Virus record (IMG/VR): IMGVR_UViG_3300013126_000263
Coordinates: 1-22,830 of that record
Length of the DNA stretch: 22,830 bases
Source of the DNA: a virus
Strand: one strand, 5' to 3'
A program made the translations under genes and the position numbers. The notes under the pieces are model-generated. The model was not told the origin of the DNA and searched no databases. It was given only the letters and a program-made list of their open reading frames with translations. How positions within the stretch are numbered: position 1 is the first letter of the stretch; every line of letters starts with the position of its first letter. Of this stretch, positions 6,238 to 21,479 are shown in pieces.

Positions 6238-7318
6238 TTTTAGGAGTATTTTCGTTAATATAATCTTGGTAAGACTTAGTTACCATAATGTCTACACCAA
6301 AGAAGTTTCTAAGTTTCTCTAGGTTATCTTTAAAGTACTTGGTTTGTTCCCTAGCTTCATCATAAAGAATCTCCATATAGTTATCCTCAGTAAGACACTT
6401 ATGGTCAAGTAAGTACTTAAGAGTATCTTTGTATGATTGCCTATTAATAGAACTAATATTAAAGCTCTTTCTAAATATATCTAGGTTCTTCCTATTCATA
6501 GATGACTCAATACGGTAACTATGTTCTTTAAGAAGCTTTACTATATAGTGTCTAGACTTATCATAGTCGCAGTTAAATAACATCTCAGCAGCTAAGCTTC
6601 GGTCATCATTACCGCTAGTCTCAAACATAATATTTAGGGTATTATATATATCCGAGTCTATAACTACACGCTCTATAGAATTGAATAACCTTTCTTCATT
6701 TACAACAGGTACACTACCTGATAAGATTCTATGTAAGATTGCTACACACTCTCCAGATACTATGTTATAAGTATGGTCTGTTGCATATAGCGGTCCCCAA
6801 GAATCCTTATAGTTATAATACCTGCCGGTAAATAATAGTTTACCTTCAATAGGAATTTCCAAATCAGGAAACTGAGGGAACTTAGCTTGTACAGTAGCAA
6901 TATCAAAATCAGTATTAATAAAGAAGTGCTTAAGATCAATACCCTCAGTACCTAGAGTTTGTGCAGGCTCATGATTTATAGGATTCAAGATGTTATTCTC
7001 ATTGCCTACAAATAAGTCTGCTTTGGAGATGTCAGTGGTTATAGTAAACCCATGCATCTTACATATCTCTCTGATATGCACTTGCGTATACATACAATTG
7101 GGAAGAACATATACCTTACTCTTTTTGGAAAGAGTAGGCATGTCTCCACCTGTCAATAGTTTTTTGATCTTTGGTAGATCATCATCGGTTACACTATACA
7201 TGTTATATAGTACAACAGTATCTTTAGGATAAGCTATGATGGGCATAGCCTCCCCGATAAAGGGAAGCTGCGCCAACATAGTAGATGTAACCGGATTAGA
7301 AGTTAAATTCGCTTTCAT
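6197..7318 (-). CDS. Unknown protein, paralogue-like partner A of the MoxR/VWA cluster
   Basis: A 373-residue soluble protein of unknown function. Its ATG overlaps the stop of the MoxR-like ATPase gene by one base (TAATG), so the two are probably translationally coupled. It has an alpha/beta segment at 68-104 that includes SKADLFVG, a middle region with an aromatic FTGRYYNYKDSWGPL stretch near 163-177, and a helical block at 219-270. The first and third blocks align with the following gene, pointing to an old tandem duplication. The C-terminal tail is polar and disordered-looking (NENTPKNEESKSVAPNDGN). I see no catalytic signature. A role as substrate-recruiting partner of the ATPase is inference only. 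Confidence 0.9.
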   Translation of the reverse strand: MKANLTSNPVTSTMLAQLPFIGEAMPIIAYPKDTVVLYNMYSVTDDDLPKIKKLLTGGDMPTLSKKSKVYVLPNCMYTQVHIREICKMHGFTITTDISKADLFVGNENNILNPINHEPAQTLGTEGIDLKHFFINTDFDIATVQAKFPQFPDLEIPIEGKLLFTGRYYNYKDSWGPLYATDHTYNIVSGECVAILHRILSGSVPVVNEERLFNSIERVVIDSDIYNTLNIMFETSGNDDRSLAAEMLFNCDYDKSRHYIVKLLKEHSYRIESSMNRKNLDIFRKSFNISSINRQSYKDTLKYLLDHKCLTEDNYMEILYDEAREQTKYFKDNLEKLRNFFGVDIMVTKSYQDYINENTPKNEESKSVAPNDGN

Positions 7319-8526
7319 TATTTTACCGCCATTTTAACAATCTCGCTATTTAACATGAGCTTAGTAAACTTAGTCTTATTACCATTAATAATACCTTTCA
7401 CAACTGCATACTTAAGGTCATTGGTGAACAAGTCCTTATCTGTGATAAAGTTAGTTACACGGTCAATGATCTTTTGGTCTACAGTATTACCATTAGAATA
7501 GTGGATAGTATAGTTAATCAAGCGATGTGCTAGTACACTAGCGATATCTGCGCGATAATCATTACCATCTACCTTACCCATAGCAGTACCCATCTGACCT
7601 TTGATGTGCTCCCAGTTAGTATGCGTTAACATATCTTTAGGAGAAACCATTTGGTCAAGCTTGTTATGGATAAACGTAGTAAACAAAGTAGCAAACTCTG
7701 CACCTACGCTACCCTCACCAATCATTTGGACTAGTGGTAAGCTATCTTCAAACTTCTCTAGGCTAGAGATACTGTTAAAGAAAGTAGTAATACTACGAGC
7801 ATTAGTCTTCTGAGTTACAGTCTCAGGGTGCATCAACAAGAAGTTAATACAGCGAGAGTCAATCTCATTTTGCTCTGCCCAACGAGCCCAGCATTCTACA
7901 TCAAACTTTAGGTTAGTAGTAATAAAACGAGTCTTCTGAGCTACGTCAATACTAGTAACATTATAGTCACCATTGTCTGGATTAGTAGTCAAGATGATAT
8001 GCCAATCCTTTGGTAACTTCCAAGAGATATAAGTTTGACGGTCAATTAATTCCATACACGCCTGCAAGAATCTGCTATCTGCACGAGTATAGTCATCGAG
8101 AATTAAGATACCGCCTTCTTCTTTACCTTGGATCCACTCTGGAGTAGCATGAGACATACGCTTTTCTCCAGTTGGTACATACTTATTCTGAATATACATT
8201 GGCATTACATTCTCGGGTATCCATTTAGATACCTTCTGCCCATCATCAGTAGTCTTAGCTACTTCAAATTCTTTAATAGGAAAACCGGTTAAGTCACCAA
8301 TCTCCTCAATCTGAGCAAGATTAATCTTAACAACATTAAGACCTAGGTCCTTACCTATCTCAAGGATGGTACTTGTCTTACCAATACCAGCCTCACCCTC
8401 TACAGCAATTGCTACTGGAACTTTACCATTAGCCTGCAGATATCTATTGTTATCTACAATATGATTTACAAAAGTCTTTAACTCGTCTGTGTTAAGATTT
8501 ACTTGGGTTGATTGTGCTTTACTCAT
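7318..8526 (-). CDS. MoxR-like AAA+ ATPase
   Basis: A 402-residue AAA+ ATPase. Walker A is GEAGIGKT at 44-51, Walker B is ILILDDYTR at 140-148, and sensor 1 is TTNPDN at 180-185. A DLTGFP segment at 78-83, just before Walker B, is the pattern seen in MoxR-type and other helix-2-insert AAA+ proteins (compare DLxG in that clade). MoxR ATPases usually work with VWA-domain proteins as chaperones that activate or remodel targets, for example RavA-ViaA or NorQ-NorD. The gene directly upstream encodes exactly such a VWA protein, and the two unknown downstream genes follow without gaps. No Shine-Dalgarno site is evident; the start is preceded by an A/T-rich run. The family call is strong; the substrate is unknown. 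Confidence 0.93.
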   Translation of the reverse strand: MSKAQSTQVNLNTDELKTFVNHIVDNNRYLQANGKVPVAIAVEGEAGIGKTSTILEIGKDLGLNVVKINLAQIEEIGDLTGFPIKEFEVAKTTDDGQKVSKWIPENVMPMYIQNKYVPTGEKRMSHATPEWIQGKEEGGILILDDYTRADSRFLQACMELIDRQTYISWKLPKDWHIILTTNPDNGDYNVTSIDVAQKTRFITTNLKFDVECWARWAEQNEIDSRCINFLLMHPETVTQKTNARSITTFFNSISSLEKFEDSLPLVQMIGEGSVGAEFATLFTTFIHNKLDQMVSPKDMLTHTNWEHIKGQMGTAMGKVDGNDYRADIASVLAHRLINYTIHYSNGNTVDQKIIDRVTNFITDKDLFTNDLKYAVVKGIINGNKTKFTKLMLNSEIVKMAVK

Positions 8527-8531
8527 TTTAT

Positions 8532-9734
8532 TTAGTTTAATTTAATTTTTGGTCCGGGAAGTTCATCATTCATCTGTGATCTAGAAGAAATTACCCACAA
8601 CATTTTACCTCTTGGTTTTACACTACAGTAGCATTCACCATCTGTTAAATAAATCATGCAGCTATAATGACCTACGTGCTCATTATAATACTCTATTACT
8701 GGGTCAAACTCGGTACCACCGCGCCCAAATATTTCTACAGTGTCTCCAGCCTTATATGGCTTAATACTATTAATCCTAGTGTCACATTGTAACACCGTGA
8801 TATCAGTACCTGTTTTATACATATGATCAATCTCGTGGAAGAACTCTCTTAGTTCATCATCACATACAGAACCGCTAGTATCTATAGCAACTAGGATGTG
8901 TCTCTTAGGCTTGATCTTTAGACCGGCCATATCTTCAAAGCGCTTGTTGAATTTTCTTCTAAGCTTCTTTGTAAATACATTTTGAGAACCTCCCGCAAAC
9001 CTTCTAAGATAACCTTTCCAGTCAAACTTAGGTGGCTCAGTGCTGCTCATCTTATCTAACAATCCTTGCATCTCTCCAGGTACATTACCGCGAGACTTAA
9101 CTTGCTCTGCTACTTCCTTAAGAGTATGCTCTAATTGTTTTTCTATAAGCTTTTTCTCAGCTTCTGGTAGATCTTCAAAGTCTTTCCATGTGCTATGATC
9201 AGGAACCGGGTCACCATCTTCATCATGACTTTGTCCATTACTCATAGCATCTAGAATCTTTTCTAGTTTACTTTTACCACCACCATTTTGCTGCTGTTGG
9301 TTCTTAGCCTTAGATAAGATTTCATAATACTCTCTACAACCAGCCTTAGCAGGTAAGTTGTATTGTTTAAATACTTCATTATCTATAGTACATCCGCCTT
9401 CTGGTAGATACTGGGGATCAATGTATTGATTAATCTCCAAGTCCATAGCAACGTTAGCTAGTCTTTTGTCTGCAAAGTTATCATGCATAGTAAGATGGAA
9501 GAATGCTATGTGCAATAGCTCATGCTTCAAGAGACCTATACGGTGTTCATGACTCAGGCTATTCCAGAATTCTTCATTAATAGTAAGCTGATAGTTAATG
9601 TTGTTCTTACTCACACCTGCGGTAGGAACTCTCTTCTCCCAAAGCTTGTTTAGTCCAATGAGAAAGAGCCCGTAAAAAGGCTCCTTCAACATTAGTTCTT
9701 TACTTGCTTTAGCTAGACTCTCATGTTTATCCAT
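8532..9734 (-). CDS. VWA-domain protein with metallopeptidase-like (DUF2201-type) N-terminus
   Basis: A 400-residue protein with two parts. The N-terminal part has HELLH at 71-75 plus H80, inside LLKHELLHIAFFHLTMHD, the zinc-binding signature of the putative metallopeptidase domain often fused to VWA domains. A charged, flexible linker with QQQQNGGGKSK follows (about 145-215). The C-terminal part is a VWA-like domain with the MIDAS sequence AIDTSGS near residue 290 and a later YLTDGE segment. This two-part arrangement is that of DUF2201-type proteins, which are commonly paired with MoxR ATPases. The gene overlaps the preceding one by eight bases and lies five bases before the MoxR-like gene. 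Whether the HExxH part is proteolytically active cannot be told from sequence. Confidence 0.92.
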   Translation of the reverse strand: MDKHESLAKASKELMLKEPFYGLFLIGLNKLWEKRVPTAGVSKNNINYQLTINEEFWNSLSHEHRIGLLKHELLHIAFFHLTMHDNFADKRLANVAMDLEINQYIDPQYLPEGGCTIDNEVFKQYNLPAKAGCREYYEILSKAKNQQQQNGGGKSKLEKILDAMSNGQSHDEDGDPVPDHSTWKDFEDLPEAEKKLIEKQLEHTLKEVAEQVKSRGNVPGEMQGLLDKMSSTEPPKFDWKGYLRRFAGGSQNVFTKKLRRKFNKRFEDMAGLKIKPKRHILVAIDTSGSVCDDELREFFHEIDHMYKTGTDITVLQCDTRINSIKPYKAGDTVEIFGRGGTEFDPVIEYYNEHVGHYSCMIYLTDGECYCSVKPRGKMLWVISSRSQMNDELPGPKIKLN

Positions 9735-14278: not shown

Positions 14279-15277
14279 TTAGAATTTAATTTTCTTTTCT
14301 TGTTGTGGCGGCGTAGCCATTTCAACAATTCTCATTTTCTCAAACTCAGCCTTAAAGAAACTCATTCTAGCATCGCCATTACGGCATTTGATAAAATGCA
14401 TTACAAGAACCTTATCATCCTCGATAATAAATCTATCGGGTCCGTATAAGCGTATCTTTTGTTTCCCAGGTCTGTTAATACCCACTAAAGTATCAGCATG
14501 TTGCAATAAAGCATCAGCTCCAAATAGGTCAGACTCTAATATGAAGTTACCATATTTACCGTCTTCACTACGCTCAGGATTATCAATGTTCCTATTAAGC
14601 TGACTTAAGATAATAAATGCTATTGGATACTTACGTTTAAGTTCCGTTAGCGCCTCACCTAAATTATACAACGTGTCATACTTGTCCTTCTCGAAGGGTG
14701 CCTTCTTCAACAAGAGCGAGTGGTCTAATGTTACAATTGTTTTCTTAAAGACTTTTTCCCCATCTTCATCAGATTCAGCGTAGTACTCCATGTAGTCCTT
14801 AATAATTTCTTTGAACTCATTAACTGTACAAGGGTCCTCCACGATATCTATGGGGTACTGAACTCTTTCTTTAGCATAGTTGTAACATACTTGTAGATCT
14901 TCATCGGTAATAGTCCCCGAAGCACTGCATAAGTACTTGTAGGGTTTACCAAGTACACTGGAATATTCACGAATAGCTGAAGTACGTGCTATCATCTCAA
15001 ACTGAAATTCCAGTACTCTAAAGTTTTCACCTTTATTCAAGATAAAAGCTTCGCGTACTATTTGATCTTTGATTAAAGTTTTCCCACTTGCCGGTCTTCC
15101 GCCAATAACCGTCATTGAGTTCCACTCTAATCCGCTAGTTGTAGCGTCATTAAACTTATCCCAAGGTGTCTTTAGGCTTTTGATATGGCCTTGTTGACGT
15201 CCTTTCATGTACTTCAAAGAGTCAAGAAATCCTTCGCGCTGGCTTTGCCAGGACGTATTTTTTTTCTTTGTTGTCAT
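14279..15277 (-). CDS. DnaB-type replicative helicase, C-terminal ATPase domain only
   Basis: A 332-residue helicase consisting of the RecA-like core of DnaB. The Lys-rich N-terminus leads into DKFNDATTSGLEW; Walker A is GGRPASGKT at 59-67, Walker B IVTLDHSL at 181-188, and a conserved SQLNR at 225-229, followed by ALLQHADTLVGI. The hexamer would unwind the fork 5'-3'. The DnaB N-terminal domain, which binds primase and loader in cellular helicases, is missing: the protein is about 120 residues shorter than bacterial DnaB, as in other compact phage helicases. It starts 11 bases after a terminator-like U-tract and leads the helicase-Sak4-SSB unit. Confidence 0.93.
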   Translation of the reverse strand: MTTKKKNTSWQSQREGFLDSLKYMKGRQQGHIKSLKTPWDKFNDATTSGLEWNSMTVIGGRPASGKTLIKDQIVREAFILNKGENFRVLEFQFEMIARTSAIREYSSVLGKPYKYLCSASGTITDEDLQVCYNYAKERVQYPIDIVEDPCTVNEFKEIIKDYMEYYAESDEDGEKVFKKTIVTLDHSLLLKKAPFEKDKYDTLYNLGEALTELKRKYPIAFIILSQLNRNIDNPERSEDGKYGNFILESDLFGADALLQHADTLVGINRPGKQKIRLYGPDRFIIEDDKVLVMHFIKCRNGDARMSFFKAEFEKMRIVEMATPPQQEKKIKF

Positions 15278-16589: not shown

Positions 16590-16830
16590 ATTTTCTATAT
16601 TCTGTTAAATGAATATTAAAGTAACGCCCATGTTTAAGGTCATCACTCATTTCTTCTACAATCTTTTTAGCTGTGTCCAGCTTGATACCAAATATGGATA
16701 GTGCATCATAGAGACACTTGTTCTCTACATCAGATCTACCGGATGCGGATATAATAAACCACATCTCTCCAAACTTCTTATCAAGTCTAGCAGTTACTCT
16801 TATTTTACCAGGATATTCTCTGTTGGCCAT
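16564..16830 (-). CDS. Small hypothetical protein
   Basis: An 88-residue protein without recognised motifs. It begins MANREYPGKIRVTARLDKKF, then a beta-type segment EMWFIISASGR and a helical, charged C-terminus ending YRKYEKEEQEA. It overlaps both neighbours by 26 bases (the end of uracil-DNA glycosylase and the start of the DnaA-like gene), which argues for a genuine coding sequence in this tightly packed unit. Function unknown. Confidence 0.75.
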   Translation of the reverse strand: MANREYPGKIRVTARLDKKFGEMWFIISASGRSDVENKCLYDALSIFGIKLDTAKKIVEEMSDDLKHGRYFNIHLTEYRKYEKEEQEA

Positions 16831-17506
16831 CTTGTTCTAGATATTCATTAATCTTATTCCACATATCATTGCAGTCCCATTTACTACCGCTATAAGCAGC
16901 ACTAGCAGGATGGCTTACCATAATCTTATGATTACTATCTGGTACCATATCTGCAAACTCTTGAGCTTTTTTACCTAGAAAAACATATACTAAATTGTCT
17001 TTAGTATGAGTTAGTATATCTAGGAGGTAAGCGATAAATGGTTGCCACAATTCTTGATGCGTACCGGGCTTGCCAATAGTTGTAGTTAATGCTGAGTTCA
17101 ACATTAACACGCCTTGTTCAACCCAGGGTAATAAATCTGCGCTCCCTACATATCCCACATCAACTGTTTCTTTTATACTAGCATGCATATATTGTAAAGA
17201 CTTCTCAATCTTACCTGTATTACTACAGCTAAATGCAATACCATCAGCAACACCTAATTGTGGATATGGATCTTGTCCTATGATAACTACTTTAACATTA
17301 TCTAGAGGACATTTTTCTAATGCAGTAAACAAACTTTTAACAGGTGGAGTAAAGCGTTTACCTTGCTCGACTTCTTTTACTAACTTTTCTAAGATATCAT
17401 CCATATCAGATGATAACAAAAAAGTGCGAAGCTTATTCCAACCTTTGTCCTTTACTTTATCATAAAGTTTTTGGCTAATTTCTTGTATATTAATTTCTTG
17501 AGTCAT
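16805..17506 (-). CDS. ung: Uracil-DNA glycosylase, family 1
   Basis: A 233-residue base-excision enzyme that removes uracil from DNA. Signature elements are VVIIGQDPYPQLGVADGIAF, with GQDPYP carrying the catalytic Asp, then LMLNSALTTTIGKPGTHQ, matching the uracil-binding Asn loop, and VSHPASAAYSGSKW in the position of the HPSPLS loop, here divergent. The start is set at the ATG at 17506 (MTQEINIQE); the reading frame continues upstream, but that extension is hydrophobic and overlaps the divergent plus-strand gene. The gene begins 22 bases from that plus-strand gene. UDG is common in Bacteroidota phage replication regions and would correct cytosine deamination or dUTP incorporation. Confidence 0.95.
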   Translation of the reverse strand: MTQEINIQEISQKLYDKVKDKGWNKLRTFLLSSDMDDILEKLVKEVEQGKRFTPPVKSLFTALEKCPLDNVKVVIIGQDPYPQLGVADGIAFSCSNTGKIEKSLQYMHASIKETVDVGYVGSADLLPWVEQGVLMLNSALTTTIGKPGTHQELWQPFIAYLLDILTHTKDNLVYVFLGKKAQEFADMVPDSNHKIMVSHPASAAYSGSKWDCNDMWNKINEYLEQDGQQRISW

Positions 17507-17528: not shown

Positions 17529-17876
17529 ATGTCAGAGAAGAAAACACAAAAGGTAAAGGTTATTGATAAAGATTCTATCATTAAAGCCGAAATACCTGGT
17601 ATTTTCTACTATAGATTTAATAAAATGCTTGGTGAACACTTTGAATACAAAGACAAAGAGCACTTTAAGCAAATTATGGAAGATATAAAAGAAGGCAAGC
17701 AGGAAACCCCGCTCGCCTATCATATTTATACCGTTATGGCATTTCAAATTCTACTAGAAGACTTAGCTGAAGAGCAAGGTCTAATGAAAGAAATTGAAAT
17801 AGATTTAGAAACAGGAGAAAGGATTAATACAGAGAAAAACCCACAAGCTCCCCAATCTCAATCGACGCCTGAATAG
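17529..17876 (+). CDS. Unknown protein, only plus-strand gene in the window
   Basis: A 115-residue protein starting MSEKKTQKVKVIDKDSIIKA. It is hydrophilic, alpha/beta with a helical C-terminal half (TPLAYHIYTVMAFQILLEDL, then EEQGLMKEIEID), and a polar Pro/Gln-rich tail. It fills a 300-base stretch that would otherwise be empty on the minus strand, and its composition is that of a real protein. The ATG at 17511 is less likely than 17529 because it lies within the candidate promoter. Its 3' end overlaps the convergent 124-residue gene by 53 bases. It is transcribed against the rest of the region, so it may belong to a different expression class. From memory similar small proteins occur in crAss-like phages, but I cannot name one. 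Confidence 0.85.
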   Translation: MSEKKTQKVKVIDKDSIIKAEIPGIFYYRFNKMLGEHFEYKDKEHFKQIMEDIKEGKQETPLAYHIYTVMAFQILLEDLAEEQGLMKEIEIDLETGERINTEKNPQAPQSQSTPE

Positions 17877-18198
17877 CCATAGCTAATTCTTCTTTACTAC
17901 AATCTGCAAAGGATCTACATTCATCATTACTACAAAGTCCTGCACGTAACTTAACCTGGAGTTTCATATCTTCAAATGAATCACCGGTATAGTTAGCGAG
18001 TTCTCTTATATGCTTATGAACCTTACTCATCTGTGCATAACTAGCATCAGAGGTTTGTGTTTCATAAGTAATGATAACTGTATCACCTTCTTCAAGTCCT
18101 TTAATAAATAGACCTAGCTTAGCAGATCCTAATGGATCTATCTCTAGATTCTTATTTACTACTTTTGCGCGTATACTTACGGGTAGTTGGTTTGACAT
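17824..18198 (-). CDS. Possible NinB-like recombination-associated protein
   Basis: A 124-residue protein. The first half is beta-rich (SIRAKVVNKNLEIDPLGSAK). The middle carries DASYAQMSKVHKHIRELANY followed by TGDSFEDMKLQVKLRAGLC, which recalls the NinB pattern (QNxKLHxxxxEIA then a segment with conserved Lys). NinB acts with single-strand recombination proteins in lambdoid phages. Cys-rich CSNDECRSFADC follows and could bind a metal. The NinB link is a resemblance, not a proven match. Its 3' end overlaps the convergent plus-strand gene by 53 bases and its start overlaps the AT-hook gene by 47 bases. Confidence 0.72.
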   Translation of the reverse strand: MSNQLPVSIRAKVVNKNLEIDPLGSAKLGLFIKGLEEGDTVIITYETQTSDASYAQMSKVHKHIRELANYTGDSFEDMKLQVKLRAGLCSNDECRSFADCSKEELAMAIQASIEIGELVGFSLY

Positions 18199-18439
18199 TA
18201 CTCTTAGATTTATTTTTACTTCCTTTAGGTCTTCCAGGTCCTCTTCTCTTTGCTTGAGAAGCTCTTTGGTTTATATAAAATTCTGTCAAATGATCTGTGT
18301 AAGCATTAGCAAGGTTACTATATCTTTCCTGTTGCCATTCTATTTCTTCCTCAAGACGTTTGATATAACGCTTTTTAATAAAGATAGCACCTAGAATAAC
18401 CAATGCAGCAGATGCTGCTAATACAATTGTTTCTACCAT
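18152..18439 (-). CDS. Membrane-anchored protein with C-terminal AT-hook
   Basis: A 95-residue protein with three parts. Residues 3-21 (ETIVLAASAALVILGAIFI) form one membrane helix, followed by the basic KKRYIKR. Residues about 29-58 (RLEEEIEWQQERYSNLANAY) look coiled-coil. The C-terminal 32 residues are Lys/Arg-rich and contain RRGPGRPKGSKNKSK, an AT-hook with its GRP core. This architecture suggests a membrane tether for AT-rich DNA, which is inference. The Lys-rich tail is encoded in the 47-base overlap with the next gene. No signal peptide cleavage site is apparent, so the N-terminus probably stays as an anchor. Confidence 0.85.
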   Translation of the reverse strand: MVETIVLAASAALVILGAIFIKKRYIKRLEEEIEWQQERYSNLANAYTDHLTEFYINQRASQAKRRGPGRPKGSKNKSKSNVKPTTRKYTRKSSK

Positions 18440-18443
18440 TTTT

Positions 18444-18752
18444 TTAAGGTTTTAGGTGGAGATAGGCTATGCCTTCTTCCACGGTTATGTAATTAATTTT
18501 TAATCCTTGCCAGTCATATAAGAATTCTCCCATGTCTGTACCGCTAGTTTCTTCACCATGCCATTCTGCTTGTGCAGTAATGTATGGTCCACCGCTAGGG
18601 TCAATCATGGAGAACTTATAGTTAGGCATCTCTGTTTCATCGGGCCAACCTCCTAGACGGAAGTGCTCAGTGAACCCTGTCATCTCTATGACATTGTCTT
18701 TTTTCTCAAAGGTGATCACATCACCATGCCTGTTTCTAAACTGTGTCTTCAT
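18444..18752 (-). CDS. Small hypothetical protein
   Basis: A 102-residue soluble protein with no recognised family. It is beta-rich and Gly/Trp/Asp-containing (FRLGGWPDETEMPNYKFSMI, DPSGGPYITAQAEWHGEET), which suggests a small beta-barrel or a lipocalin-like sheet. No secretion signal. It lies between the SPL-like radical SAM gene (one base) and the AT-hook membrane gene (four bases). Function unknown. Confidence 0.8.
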   Translation of the reverse strand: MKTQFRNRHGDVITFEKKDNVIEMTGFTEHFRLGGWPDETEMPNYKFSMIDPSGGPYITAQAEWHGEETSGTDMGEFLYDWQGLKINYITVEEGIAYLHLKP

Positions 18753-18753
18753 A

Positions 18754-19644
18754 CTAAAAGATATAACGTATTGTATTCCAAGGGATTAGTAACTCATGTA
18801 AGGCTCTAAACTGGTAGATATAATCCGCCTTAAGTTTATGCTCATAGCGGATATTTAACTGACCATTACTAGAGATTTTATTCTCTTGTATATCAGGCCT
18901 CCATAGTAGATCTTCCCCGGGTATATTGTTAGCAAGATTATACTCATGCTTCTTCTCATTATGAGTAAGAAAGATAACCTCAGACTTTATACCATTTTCT
19001 CTTTTGTACCTAGCATACACCATCTTATCTACCAGCATAAACAAATCCCGGTAATCCTCTAACCAAGTATCAGTAACTATAACAGGACTGAAGTTAATGT
19101 GTACATCATAGCCACGAGATATAAAATCATTGATAGCAGATATCCTTTCTTCTATAGGACTAGTATTAGGTTCTAGTATATCCGCATACTTCTGCGGCAT
19201 AAGACTAAATCTAATACGGGTTCTACTAGGATGTACATCAAGATGTAACAAATCATAGTTTACATACTTAGTAGCAAACGAGAACATCATTGTCTTACCT
19301 ATAGGTTCATCAAGTATCTTCTGTAAGTCATAGTACTTAGCATGTAAAGCTAGGTCTTCATTAGTACCTATATCATAAGTAATTCTATCCTCATGTGTCT
19401 GGTTAGGTTTATTAGTTGAACACCATAAATAAGGATTGATATTATGGTAATGGTCAGTTATAGCATCTAATACATCATCTACATTTTTTGCAATCTGTAA
19501 TCCGGTAGGTCTATGTCTTTTCATGTAGCAGTAACTGCAGTTGAATAAACATCCGTGTCCAAAGCTAGGAGCAATAAAGTCCGTGCTTCTACCTGATTCA
19601 GTTATCTTAAGTTGTCTTCTAGTTACTTCTTTTACCAGACTCAT
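18754..19644 (-). CDS. Radical SAM protein, spore photoproduct lyase-like
   Basis: A 296-residue radical SAM protein. C32, C36 and C39 in GHGCLFNCSYCYMKRHRP make the CxxxCxxC iron-sulfur site. Downstream are YDIGTNEDLAL, FATKYVNYDLL, TRIRFSLMPQ, EPNTSPIEERI and GYDVHINFSPVIV, the order and spacing of spore photoproduct lyase-like proteins. SPL repairs a thymine photodimer in Bacillus spores; related phage proteins may repair DNA or modify other substrates, and I cannot say which. It is a little shorter than Bacillus SPL, and the Cys acting as H-atom donor there is not evident here. The start overlaps the preceding 53-codon ORF by 26 bases. Confidence 0.9.
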   Translation of the reverse strand: MSLVKEVTRRQLKITESGRSTDFIAPSFGHGCLFNCSYCYMKRHRPTGLQIAKNVDDVLDAITDHYHNINPYLWCSTNKPNQTHEDRITYDIGTNEDLALHAKYYDLQKILDEPIGKTMMFSFATKYVNYDLLHLDVHPSRTRIRFSLMPQKYADILEPNTSPIEERISAINDFISRGYDVHINFSPVIVTDTWLEDYRDLFMLVDKMVYARYKRENGIKSEVIFLTHNEKKHEYNLANNIPGEDLLWRPDIQENKISSNGQLNIRYEHKLKADYIYQFRALHELLIPWNTIRYIF

Positions 19645-20064: not shown

Positions 20065-20445
20065 TTAATATTCTGCTAGTTCATAGAACCAGCCGTAATT
20101 TTTATATTCTACAAACAAATATACTGAATTATTCATGTTGGTTATATAAATATTACATCTATTACCATCAACATCAATAGTCTTCCACATGGTAGAATAC
20201 TCATCTAAAGTTTCTCCAGAACTAATAGCAATGTACTTTTGGGTTATTTGAGAATAAATGGTGACAGTGTTATCATCATCTATATGAATAGGAATGCTAA
20301 GTCCAGCATCTTCTTCATCCCATTTAAAGTTATCGCTAATAGTTGGTCTAGTACCATAAGTTAGACTAATACCTTTATACGTAGACTGTGCTTCAACCCA
20401 AGTACTTAACAGTACGAGGATTATAATCAATACTTTTTTAATCAT
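20065..20445 (-). CDS. Exported small protein with signal peptide
   Basis: A 126-residue protein with a clear Sec signal: MIKKVLIIILVLLSTWVEAQ has a basic start, hydrophobic core and a VEA cleavage-like end near residue 19. The mature part is beta-rich with many Tyr/Asn/Thr (KWKTIDVDG-type strands, then SVYLFVEYKNYGWFYELAEY) and lacks Cys, so it would be soluble in the periplasm or attached to the envelope. An envelope-directed phage protein outside a lysis cassette could act in superinfection exclusion or host-surface change; this is speculation. It overlaps the preceding gene by eight bases. Confidence 0.85.
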   Translation of the reverse strand: MIKKVLIIILVLLSTWVEAQSTYKGISLTYGTRPTISDNFKWDEEDAGLSIPIHIDDDNTVTIYSQITQKYIAISSGETLDEYSTMWKTIDVDGNRCNIYITNMNNSVYLFVEYKNYGWFYELAEY

Positions 20446-20731
20446 TTTCTTGTTCTAGTTCAGGACGGTGAACCTTAAGGCCCCACATCAGGTTATACAT
20501 AGAAGCAGATGTTTTTGCATGTCTTACCGTAAGACTCCTATGCTTACGGAAGTACCCTACCATCCACTCCATCCATTTAGCTTCTTGCTCAGGAGTCATG
20601 GCCCAGTCATAGTACCATTGGTCCTTGCGGTCTTTAATATCCTCATAGGATACATCATGACCAGCTATAATAAACATGGTATTGATTATATCTTTTACCA
20701 TGTCATCATCAGTTAGTCTTTTACTTTTCAT
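20438..20731 (-). CDS. Small hypothetical phage protein
   Basis: A 97-residue, Trp-rich, helical protein. It contains KDQWYYDWAMTPEQEAKWME near 36-55, followed by a basic helix YFRKHRSLTVRHAKTSASM and a C-terminal MWGLKVHRPELEQEND. From memory this pattern (TPEQ-x-x-x-W, then a C-terminal GLK) recurs in phages of Bacteroidota without assigned function. It overlaps the 73-residue gene by 11 bases. Confidence 0.82.
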   Translation of the reverse strand: MKSKRLTDDDMVKDIINTMFIIAGHDVSYEDIKDRKDQWYYDWAMTPEQEAKWMEWMVGYFRKHRSLTVRHAKTSASMYNLMWGLKVHRPELEQEND

Positions 20732-20942: not shown

Positions 20943-21238
20943 GGGTCTTCTATTTCACAGGTTAAATCCATTTGCCCAAGTATATCTGCTATAGGCTCAA
21001 GCTTATCGCGAGATCCATACTTAGCCACAGCTTTACCCTCATTATGTACCTTCATAGCTATCTCAGCAGCTTTAGCAGCACTTACTTGACAGTAGATAAT
21101 AAGAGCCATGATAACTTTATCAAAGCTGTTATGGTCATCATTAAACAAGATGAGCTTGCTGTCCTCCATAAAGGACAGGTCAAGCTTTACATCTTCTAGT
21201 TCAAGAGTACTAGTCTCTCCAGTTGTGCCAGTCATCAT
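20939..21238 (-). CDS. ClpS-like N-end rule adaptor
   Basis: A 99-residue ClpS-type protein. The core KLILFNDDHNSFDKVIMALI (28-47) contains the NDD triad (N33-D34-D35) that lines the N-degron pocket in ClpS, followed by helical AAKAAEIAMKVHNEGKAVAK with H65 at the position of the conserved His of ClpS (VHxxGKA). ClpS delivers proteins with N-degrons to ClpAP. An acidic, flexible N-terminal tail of about 25 residues precedes the fold, as in cellular ClpS. A phage copy could redirect host ClpAP or ClpCP proteolysis; that is inference. The gene lies in the early-type accessory block after the SF2 helicase. Confidence 0.92.
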   Translation of the reverse strand: MMTGTTGETSTLELEDVKLDLSFMEDSKLILFNDDHNSFDKVIMALIIYCQVSAAKAAEIAMKVHNEGKAVAKYGSRDKLEPIADILGQMDLTCEIEDP

Positions 21239-21479
21239 CTGCTATTTCTTCTTTATAACATTCTTTACATATAGAAACATCTTCTAGCATAGATTCTAAT
21301 GCTTCATTATAATCTCTATCGCTATTAGTAGCTTCTTGATCCGCTATATCACGGATAACATCCATATCGCAATTGCGACAAAGATCTTCATAGTTCCAAA
21401 TTGCGCGGGGATCTTTATCTGCCCCCGCTGGTAAATTACTATTCATTTGCTTTAACCCATTTAATTTTTGTGTCATCAT
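21210..21479 (-). CDS. Small acidic protein with two Cys pairs
   Basis: An 89-residue acidic protein with CRNC (near 34-37) and CKEC (near 71-74) separated by a helical, Asp-rich stretch, a layout suited to a zinc-ribbon-like fold. An ATG at 21479 overlaps the helicase stop by 41 bases; the ATG at 21446 (MNSNLPAGADK) overlaps it by eight bases and may be the true start, giving 78 residues. It overlaps the ClpS gene by 29 bases. Function unknown. Confidence 0.78.
   Translation of the reverse strand: MMTQKLNGLKQMNSNLPAGADKDPRAIWNYEDLCRNCDMDVIRDIADQEATNSDRDYNEALESMLEDVSICKECYKEEIADDDWHNWRD

Follow-up and report, generated by a model that had tools for sequence, protein, structure and literature searches.

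The DNA analysed here, in the following called the window, is a 22,830-base fragment with a GC content of 35%. It encodes a small protein, the hook protein, in which a predicted transmembrane segment (TM), a basic cluster (KKRYIKR), a helical spacer, the AT-hook region KRRGPGRPKGSKNKSK and a basic tail follow one another, and we see an even chance that this protein is a phage-made tether between DNA and the membrane. The claim is carried by the repeated retention of this layout at one genomic place. Hydrophobic N-termini are common among small phage proteins (16 of 90 annotated small genes in a hand-typed selection from crAss001 and the first half of phi14:2), and the layout in one protein alone is therefore unsurprising. 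To our knowledge, there is as yet no agreed answer to the question of where in the cell crAss-like phages replicate; with one short, conserved gene as a candidate for keeping DNA at the membrane, this question becomes directly testable.

Layout and predicted orientation of the hook protein

18152–18439, minus strand: the AT-hook protein, whole open reading frame, 95 residues with an ATG start (open reading frame list, homologues and AlphaFold2 model)
18377–18427, minus strand: predicted TM, residues 5–21 (hydropathy and charge; K/R absent before it, KKRYIKR cluster after it)
18254–18376, minus strand: coiled-coil-like helical spacer, residues 22–62 (heptad a/d positions 26, 29, 33, 36, 40, 43 and 47)
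18203–18250, minus strand: AT-hook region, residues 64–79, with the core GRPKGSKNK at 18209–18235

One TM, a coiled-coil-like segment and a C-terminal AT-hook in 95 residues had already been read from the DNA in the initial annotation, and this layout is borne out by the exact ends of the open reading frame, by hydropathy, by the heptads and by the motif. TM and coil were judged by hydropathy, charge and heptads. The best hydrophobic stretch of 17 residues (residues 5–21) has a Kyte–Doolittle mean of 2.85. In the AlphaFold2 model (11-row alignment, mean pLDDT 77.3) an unbroken helix runs from residue 2 to residue 65, with means of 10-residue blocks of 81–94 up to residue 60, and the tail (residues 66–95) is unstructured, with block means of 56–59. 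A TM plus a coil would be expected to look like such a long single helix in a model, which does not prove either of them independently. The best heptad register in the helix after the TM was matched by 75 of 20,000 column shuffles (21 proteins of the close relatives, group 1); the sequences have the heptad pattern of a coiled coil, and an oligomer is a candidate.

The window's protein has a single C-terminal AT-hook, KRRGPGRPKGSKNK, with a G-R-P core among basic residues. The motif pattern is matched once in the window as compared with a mean of 0.00 in 100 shuffles, and in the relative contig G002 (97,988 bases, read in five pieces and six frames) GRPKG occurs once, inside the hook protein. 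The hook protein matched no Pfam family at the cut-off, and its PHROG matches were weak (Mu Gam-like, E = 0.0026; Rz-like spanins, phrog_739 with E = 0.027 and phrog_214 with E = 0.44). PADLOC, run on two window proteins, gave no match.

By the positive-inside rule the hook protein is predicted to be a single-pass protein with the N-terminus outside, the C-terminus inside and the tail in the cytoplasm. All 36 records compared, which amount to 35 distinct sequences since L146 and L148 share one protein, have more K/R in the flank after the TM than in the flank before it, where there are none, and their last 30 residues carry a net charge of +5 to +13. This predicted orientation would place the hook where the DNA is.

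Genomic setting and relatives

17824–18198, minus strand: downstream gene, 124 residues, possibly NinB/Orf-like by predicted fold
18444–18752, minus strand: upstream conserved gene, 102 residues, 77–94% identity in 12 relatives
16805–17506, minus strand: uracil-DNA glycosylase (UDG), same gene block
14279–15277, minus strand: DnaB-like replicative helicase, same gene block

By profile, the window encodes a family-B DNA polymerase, a DnaB-like helicase, a UDG, an SF2 helicase and a spore-photoproduct-lyase-like radical SAM protein. It very probably comes from a crAss-like phage, because the contigs of its relatives carry a Crassvirales capsid gene and because its helicase resembles those of crAss-like phages. 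The phage records that the helicase matched best were an unannotated faecal phage, at 31.6%, and crAss-like phages, at about 30%. The capsid family Crass_capsid (PF23898) was found in 6 of the 16 records searched, namely in G001–G005, which are large contigs with close homologues, and in G006, the other ten being fragments of 4–38 kb. In G002, for example, the Crassvirales capsid was matched with E = 9.2e-32, besides matches to portal, terminase and head proteins; the capsid, portal and terminase genes of this contig lie on one strand and its hook gene on the other. A capsid gene of the Crassvirales type was recognised on the L103 contig (E = 1.1e-79) and none on the L291 contig (33.8 kb).

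The downstream gene possibly encodes a NinB-like protein, to judge from its modelled fold. The AlphaFold2 model, built from 30 sequences, has a pLDDT of 85.0 and a pTM of 0.56; NinB entries were among the best matches in Foldseek against viral models (E = 4.7e-4 and weaker), and in VIA-align NinB (1pc6) reached Z 8.2 (75 aligned, rmsd 3.1), level with an unrelated dikinase at Z 8.3. Foldseek against the PDB gave nothing below E = 0.31, and Pfam gave no match.

Several other genes of the window deserve mention. A lone plus-strand gene (17529–17876) between the downstream gene and the UDG gene has the same opposite orientation in relatives, at identities from 97% to 29%. The radical SAM gene (18754–19644, minus strand) matches SPL in Pfam (E = 3.1e-20) and is present in related viral contigs; a tblastn search for it in 50,697 phage records gave nothing at E ≤ 1e-5. 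Two adjacent minus-strand genes (7318–8526 and 8532–9734) read, by eye, like a MoxR-type ATPase and a VWA-domain metal-binding protein.

With the hook protein alone, tblastn against the phage records gave one chance match only (E = 5), and no match came from viral contigs scanned with this one sequence. Close relatives were reached mainly via the UDG and helicase genes, and then via an alignment and the motif pattern; the alignment search yielded 13 loci, five of which (L104–L108) matched at the motif only. The group-1 set of 21 was selected for containing GRP, and a fairer count therefore starts from the downstream gene: at all 22 distinct loci where this gene is at least 75% identical (window included), GRPKGS[KT]NK is encoded in the open reading frame just upstream. 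L100 and L211 among the 22 were fetched only by hook searches, the other 20 being the window itself or brought in by UDG or helicase. The count includes a broken copy on a short contig (L083, 1950–2300), in which the frame of the hook gene is interrupted just after the TM and before the hook, either in reality or by an assembly error. The hook protein changes fast and keeps its plan: it shares 36–47% identity with the ten relatives in alignment A1, and the neighbours are better kept in relatives, with 81–95% for the downstream gene, 77–94% for the upstream gene and 68–95% for UDG.

The distant set consists of 28 loci with a downstream gene less than 70% identical; these are not deduplicated (25 after deduplication), and two are without upstream sequence. 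A hook variant, RGRKPG or RGRRPG, is found at 13 of the 26 loci with upstream sequence (13 of 23 on deduplicated loci). These hooks are different sequences and stand, too, behind a TM and a coil; at L142 the hook open reading frame is cut before the TM. One of the 26 (L165) has a TM, a coil and a basic tail without a hook, and at 12 nothing similar was found within the 1.4–1.7 kb read upstream. The initial annotation had made its reading depend on conservation of the AT-hook, which is thus complete at the close loci, present at half of the distant ones and not seen in the sequence read at the remaining half.

A third set, L103 and L291, was found through the hook itself and has a TM, a coil and GRPKGSKNK with other codons. 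The small genes beside these hook genes resemble, by eye, the window genes 20438–20731 and 21210–21479. Directly before the TM-hook gene both have a gene for 55–56 residues (L103, 5734–5904; L291, 1647–1814), which looks lipoprotein-like (ASCK box, by eye).

Searching parts of four isolates (crAss001 minus 50001–52679; phi14:2, 1–50000; cr52_1, 47296–88198; cr125_1, 1–23422 and 50000–98095) with the pattern GRP or RGR followed by P/K/G, which is blind to RGRRPG, brought up no hook protein. The architecture, for which a survey of related phages had been suggested, is thus kept at the close loci, at half of the distant ones and in L103 and L291, and is in none of the isolate parts read. From its absence there and from 12 of the 26 distant loci it follows that the hook protein is not essential to crAss-like replication.

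In 13 loci the gene order is TM-hook gene, downstream gene, opposite-strand gene (in 12 of the 13) and UDG gene. At 8 of these 13 loci an upstream radical SAM gene was noted, about 6 kb away for the distant clade. Of the 14 distant loci with a TM-hook or TM-coil gene, 12 encode a hydrophobic protein of 130–132 residues between this gene and the downstream gene. Comparison of the profiles of the close and the distant clade gave a probability of 92.4% over 29 columns, in the TM/juxtamembrane part. Common descent of the two clades rests mainly on gene order, composition-driven profile matches being weak.

Frozen hook codons and the overlapping gene

18218–18235, minus strand: 18 invariant bases, GGAAGACCTAAAGGAAGT, identical in 20 of the 21 group-1 genes, synonymous sites included
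18152–18198, minus strand: overlap of 47 bases between the 3′ end of the hook gene and the start of the next gene (open reading frame coordinates, relatives)

The overlap, a point missing from the initial annotation, spans the last 15 codons of the hook gene. The 18 invariant bases end 19 bases before the start of the next gene and are thus outside the overlap. In group 1, pS falls from 0.60 in the spacer to 0.097 in the hook and 0.01 in the overlap tail. The invariant tail of the TRKYTRKSSK type is probably explained by the gene overlap; as a functional signature it was dropped, since it lies inside the overlap, where pS is this low, and is missing in L102, where the overlap is a single base. 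The hook lies upstream of the overlap, and the overlap therefore does not explain why its codons are frozen. Rather, a constraint at the DNA level seems to act on them, perhaps as a leader of the downstream gene or as a recombination joint. With the hook codons frozen and the tail overlapping, conservation in the window's clade is not purely a matter of protein selection.

Selection at the protein level is seen in the distant clade, where KRGRKPG has a pN of 0.011 at a pS of 0.26 (11 sequences, two being identical proteins) and the coil a pN of 0.40 at a pS of 0.62. For L102, L103 and L291 the codons suggest the same. In L102, for example, GRPKGSKNK is kept with GGT TCT AAG for the usual GGA AGT AAA, the serine codon having gone from AGT to TCT. 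Just before the hook core both codons and residues vary, and the residues are mostly still basic. L102 (2142–2429) is the sole group-1 gene without a long overlap; its tail, KKPGPKRNK, looks like a second, degenerate hook.

These data bear directly on the possibility that the protein is a charged-tail adaptor, which would bind a protein of the phage or of the host, RNA or acidic lipid, its likeness to an AT-hook being incidental and the frozen bases mainly serving expression of the downstream gene. The 18 bases shared so close to the next start, the pS of the overlap tail and the basic tail without a hook in L165 are all in its favour, but the distant clade has kept RGRKPG despite synonymous change and without overlap with the next gene, the same GRPKGSKNK is written with other codons in L102, L103 and L291, and the residues before the core remain largely basic as they vary in codon and residue. 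We therefore regard this explanation as unlikely.

Proposed role in comparison with known systems

What the sequences show is the layout, the way it is kept and remodelled among relatives, the orientation bias and the gene context. If the hook protein is a tether, its N-terminal helix would insert into the cytoplasmic membrane with the C-terminus inside, as the charge distribution suggests, and the helical spacer would, going by its heptads, join copies to dimers or oligomers. One AT-hook alone binds weakly; several weak hooks would grip AT-rich DNA through avidity. As the product of a replication/recombination gene block, the protein would then keep replicating phage DNA and the replication machinery at the membrane, to judge from gene order. 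Since the gene lies among replication genes, the DNA that would be held is more likely that of the phage than that of the host. It should be considered, against a tether, that the hook codons of group 1 may be frozen for the sake of a nucleotide element and not of the protein, and that the basic tail could bind RNA or lipid head groups instead.

The protein could also be thought of as a membrane-held silencer or host-nucleoid binder similar to H-NS and Lsr2, which would pull the host chromosome, or AT-rich genes of the host or of rivals, to the membrane and silence them. H-NS and Lsr2 are, as is generally known, soluble; the hook protein is without a family match, and specifically without an H-NS/Lsr2 match in Pfam or PHROG at E ≤ 1, and its gene is located in the replication gene block. 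This makes a silencer improbable, although an N-terminal oligomerisation region followed by a C-terminal contact of the AT-hook type is also the plan of H-NS and Lsr2 (excerpts of PMC10011098) and phages carry relatives of these proteins (excerpts of PMC10011098; see also PMC8612146 and PMC7074111). Least probable is an i-spanin-like lysis protein, with a TM, a periplasmic coiled coil and a basic tail touching the outer membrane or a lipoprotein partner: the weak PHROG matches to Rz-like spanins and the small lipoprotein-like gene just upstream in L103 and L291 point to it, but the charge bias predicts the reverse of i-spanin topology in every record, no lipoprotein-like open reading frame was seen by eye directly beside the hook gene in the window, the hook gene of G002 is opposite in strand to the capsid, portal and terminase genes, and a conserved AT-hook has no evident periplasmic role.

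The hook motif is found in other proteins as well. A sample taken by motif, blind to architecture, comprised 119 loci among the matches listed. Among these matches, an N-terminal hydrophobic segment was present in 8 of 29 small proteins with a C-terminal hook, in none of 58 with an N-terminal hook and in 1 of 21 other proteins (Fisher test for 8/29 versus 0/58, p = 7e-5). An enrichment of TMs in proteins with a C-terminal hook was nevertheless dropped, since 8 of 29 among the matches listed compares with 16 of 90 small phage genes (p = 0.29), and amphipathic N-termini of look-alikes were dropped because just 1 of 11 was clearly above its own shuffles.

In a scan of genome contigs 22 loci were found, matching almost only at the motif, and the phage layout (TM, coil, C-terminal hook) was in none of these 22. 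Three of them (L185, L190 and L193, on bacterial MAG contigs) are FtsK-type translocases, confirmed by Pfam, which start with GRPKGSKNK or GRPKGSTNK; DNA-handling membrane proteins thus do carry the hook motif. The N-terminus of FtsK is cytoplasmic. These translocases and the phage protein have in common the same motif on an integral membrane protein; in the translocases, however, the motif is N-terminal on a DNA-handling motor of 696–898 residues, whereas the phage protein is motorless. FtsK/SpoIIIE look-alikes with the same N-terminal motif were noted on Firmicutes and other bacterial contigs (L186–L188, L194–L196, L200 and L201). The DUF4282 membrane protein of a Hellea MAG (L203) has several hooks of the GRPKGSKNK/GRPKGSTNK type in its C-terminal part, and is in this respect like the phage protein; it is, however, bacterial and longer, and the phage protein has one hook only. 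Together with the translocases it provides independent cases in which a membrane protein bears the motif.

Small proteins with a C-terminal GRPKGSKNK are also encoded on viral contigs (L242, 2974–3246; L267, 3198–3458; L231, 1320–1649; L293, L236, L220, L224 and L330). These proteins share, by eye, a segment R.R...G.Y..DD.ST..NEA, and their N-terminus is either a TM or short and aromatic-rich. Proteins of 37–54 residues in L276, L235, L279, L310 and L337 begin with a short stretch rich in W and L, and KRGRPKGSKNK or KRGRPKGSTNK comes soon after it. A protein search with the look-alikes L242 and L235 against the phage records gave nothing, for which the low-complexity filter is possibly responsible.

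Whether membrane-anchored AT-hooks are a general and repeatedly evolved device, by which several crAss-like lineages and other viral contigs would tie their genomes to the membrane, seems doubtful. The look-alikes cited for it have a TM and a C-terminal GRPKGSKNK (L242, L267, L231, L296 and L319), further ones having a short aromatic N-terminus. If true, one short fused protein would give lytic phages a membrane-bound replication site.

The hook itself is similar to the type-I hook of plant AHL proteins, in which Gly-Ser-Lys-Asn-Lys comes after an Arg-Gly-Arg core (excerpts of PMC4209074); here the same extension is seen in GRPKGSKNK, with GRPKGSTNK as the other form. Unlike the phage protein, with its single hook attached to a predicted membrane helix, AHL proteins are found in the nucleus and contain a PPC domain. 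A role in replication or regulation has been proposed for phage AT-hook proteins, for example in a PM2-like element (excerpts of PMC1950889) and in a filamentous prophage (excerpts of PMC10011098). In the open-licence literature searched, no description of a membrane-anchored phage AT-hook was found, as far as its available excerpts go, and nothing on an AT-hook together with crAssphage.

In p16.7 of phage phi29 an N-terminal TM, a coiled coil and a C-terminal DNA-binding part follow one another, the last being a folded domain for dimerisation and DNA binding, and the solved structures are said to be those of this C-terminal domain. According to the excerpts of PMC4974454 and PMC11476376, the phage protein p16.7 resides in the membrane, binds DNA and acts as an organiser of replication, and p1 of phi29 is likewise a phage membrane protein organising replication; the earlier remark that no such phage anchor was known must therefore be corrected. 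p16.7 interacts with the terminal protein and with displaced single strands (excerpts of PMC4974454), and its structures, deposited in the PDB, were solved experimentally (excerpts of PMC11476376). Both p16.7 and the hook protein are small, the one a known phage membrane protein, the other a predicted membrane protein with a putative DNA contact. They differ in that the tail of the hook protein is predicted to be disordered and has one AT-hook and no predicted folded C-terminal domain. By analogy, the hook protein may work like p16.7 without being a member of its kind, and, if it does tether DNA, it would be a second DNA-binding solution among phage membrane organisers such as p16.7.
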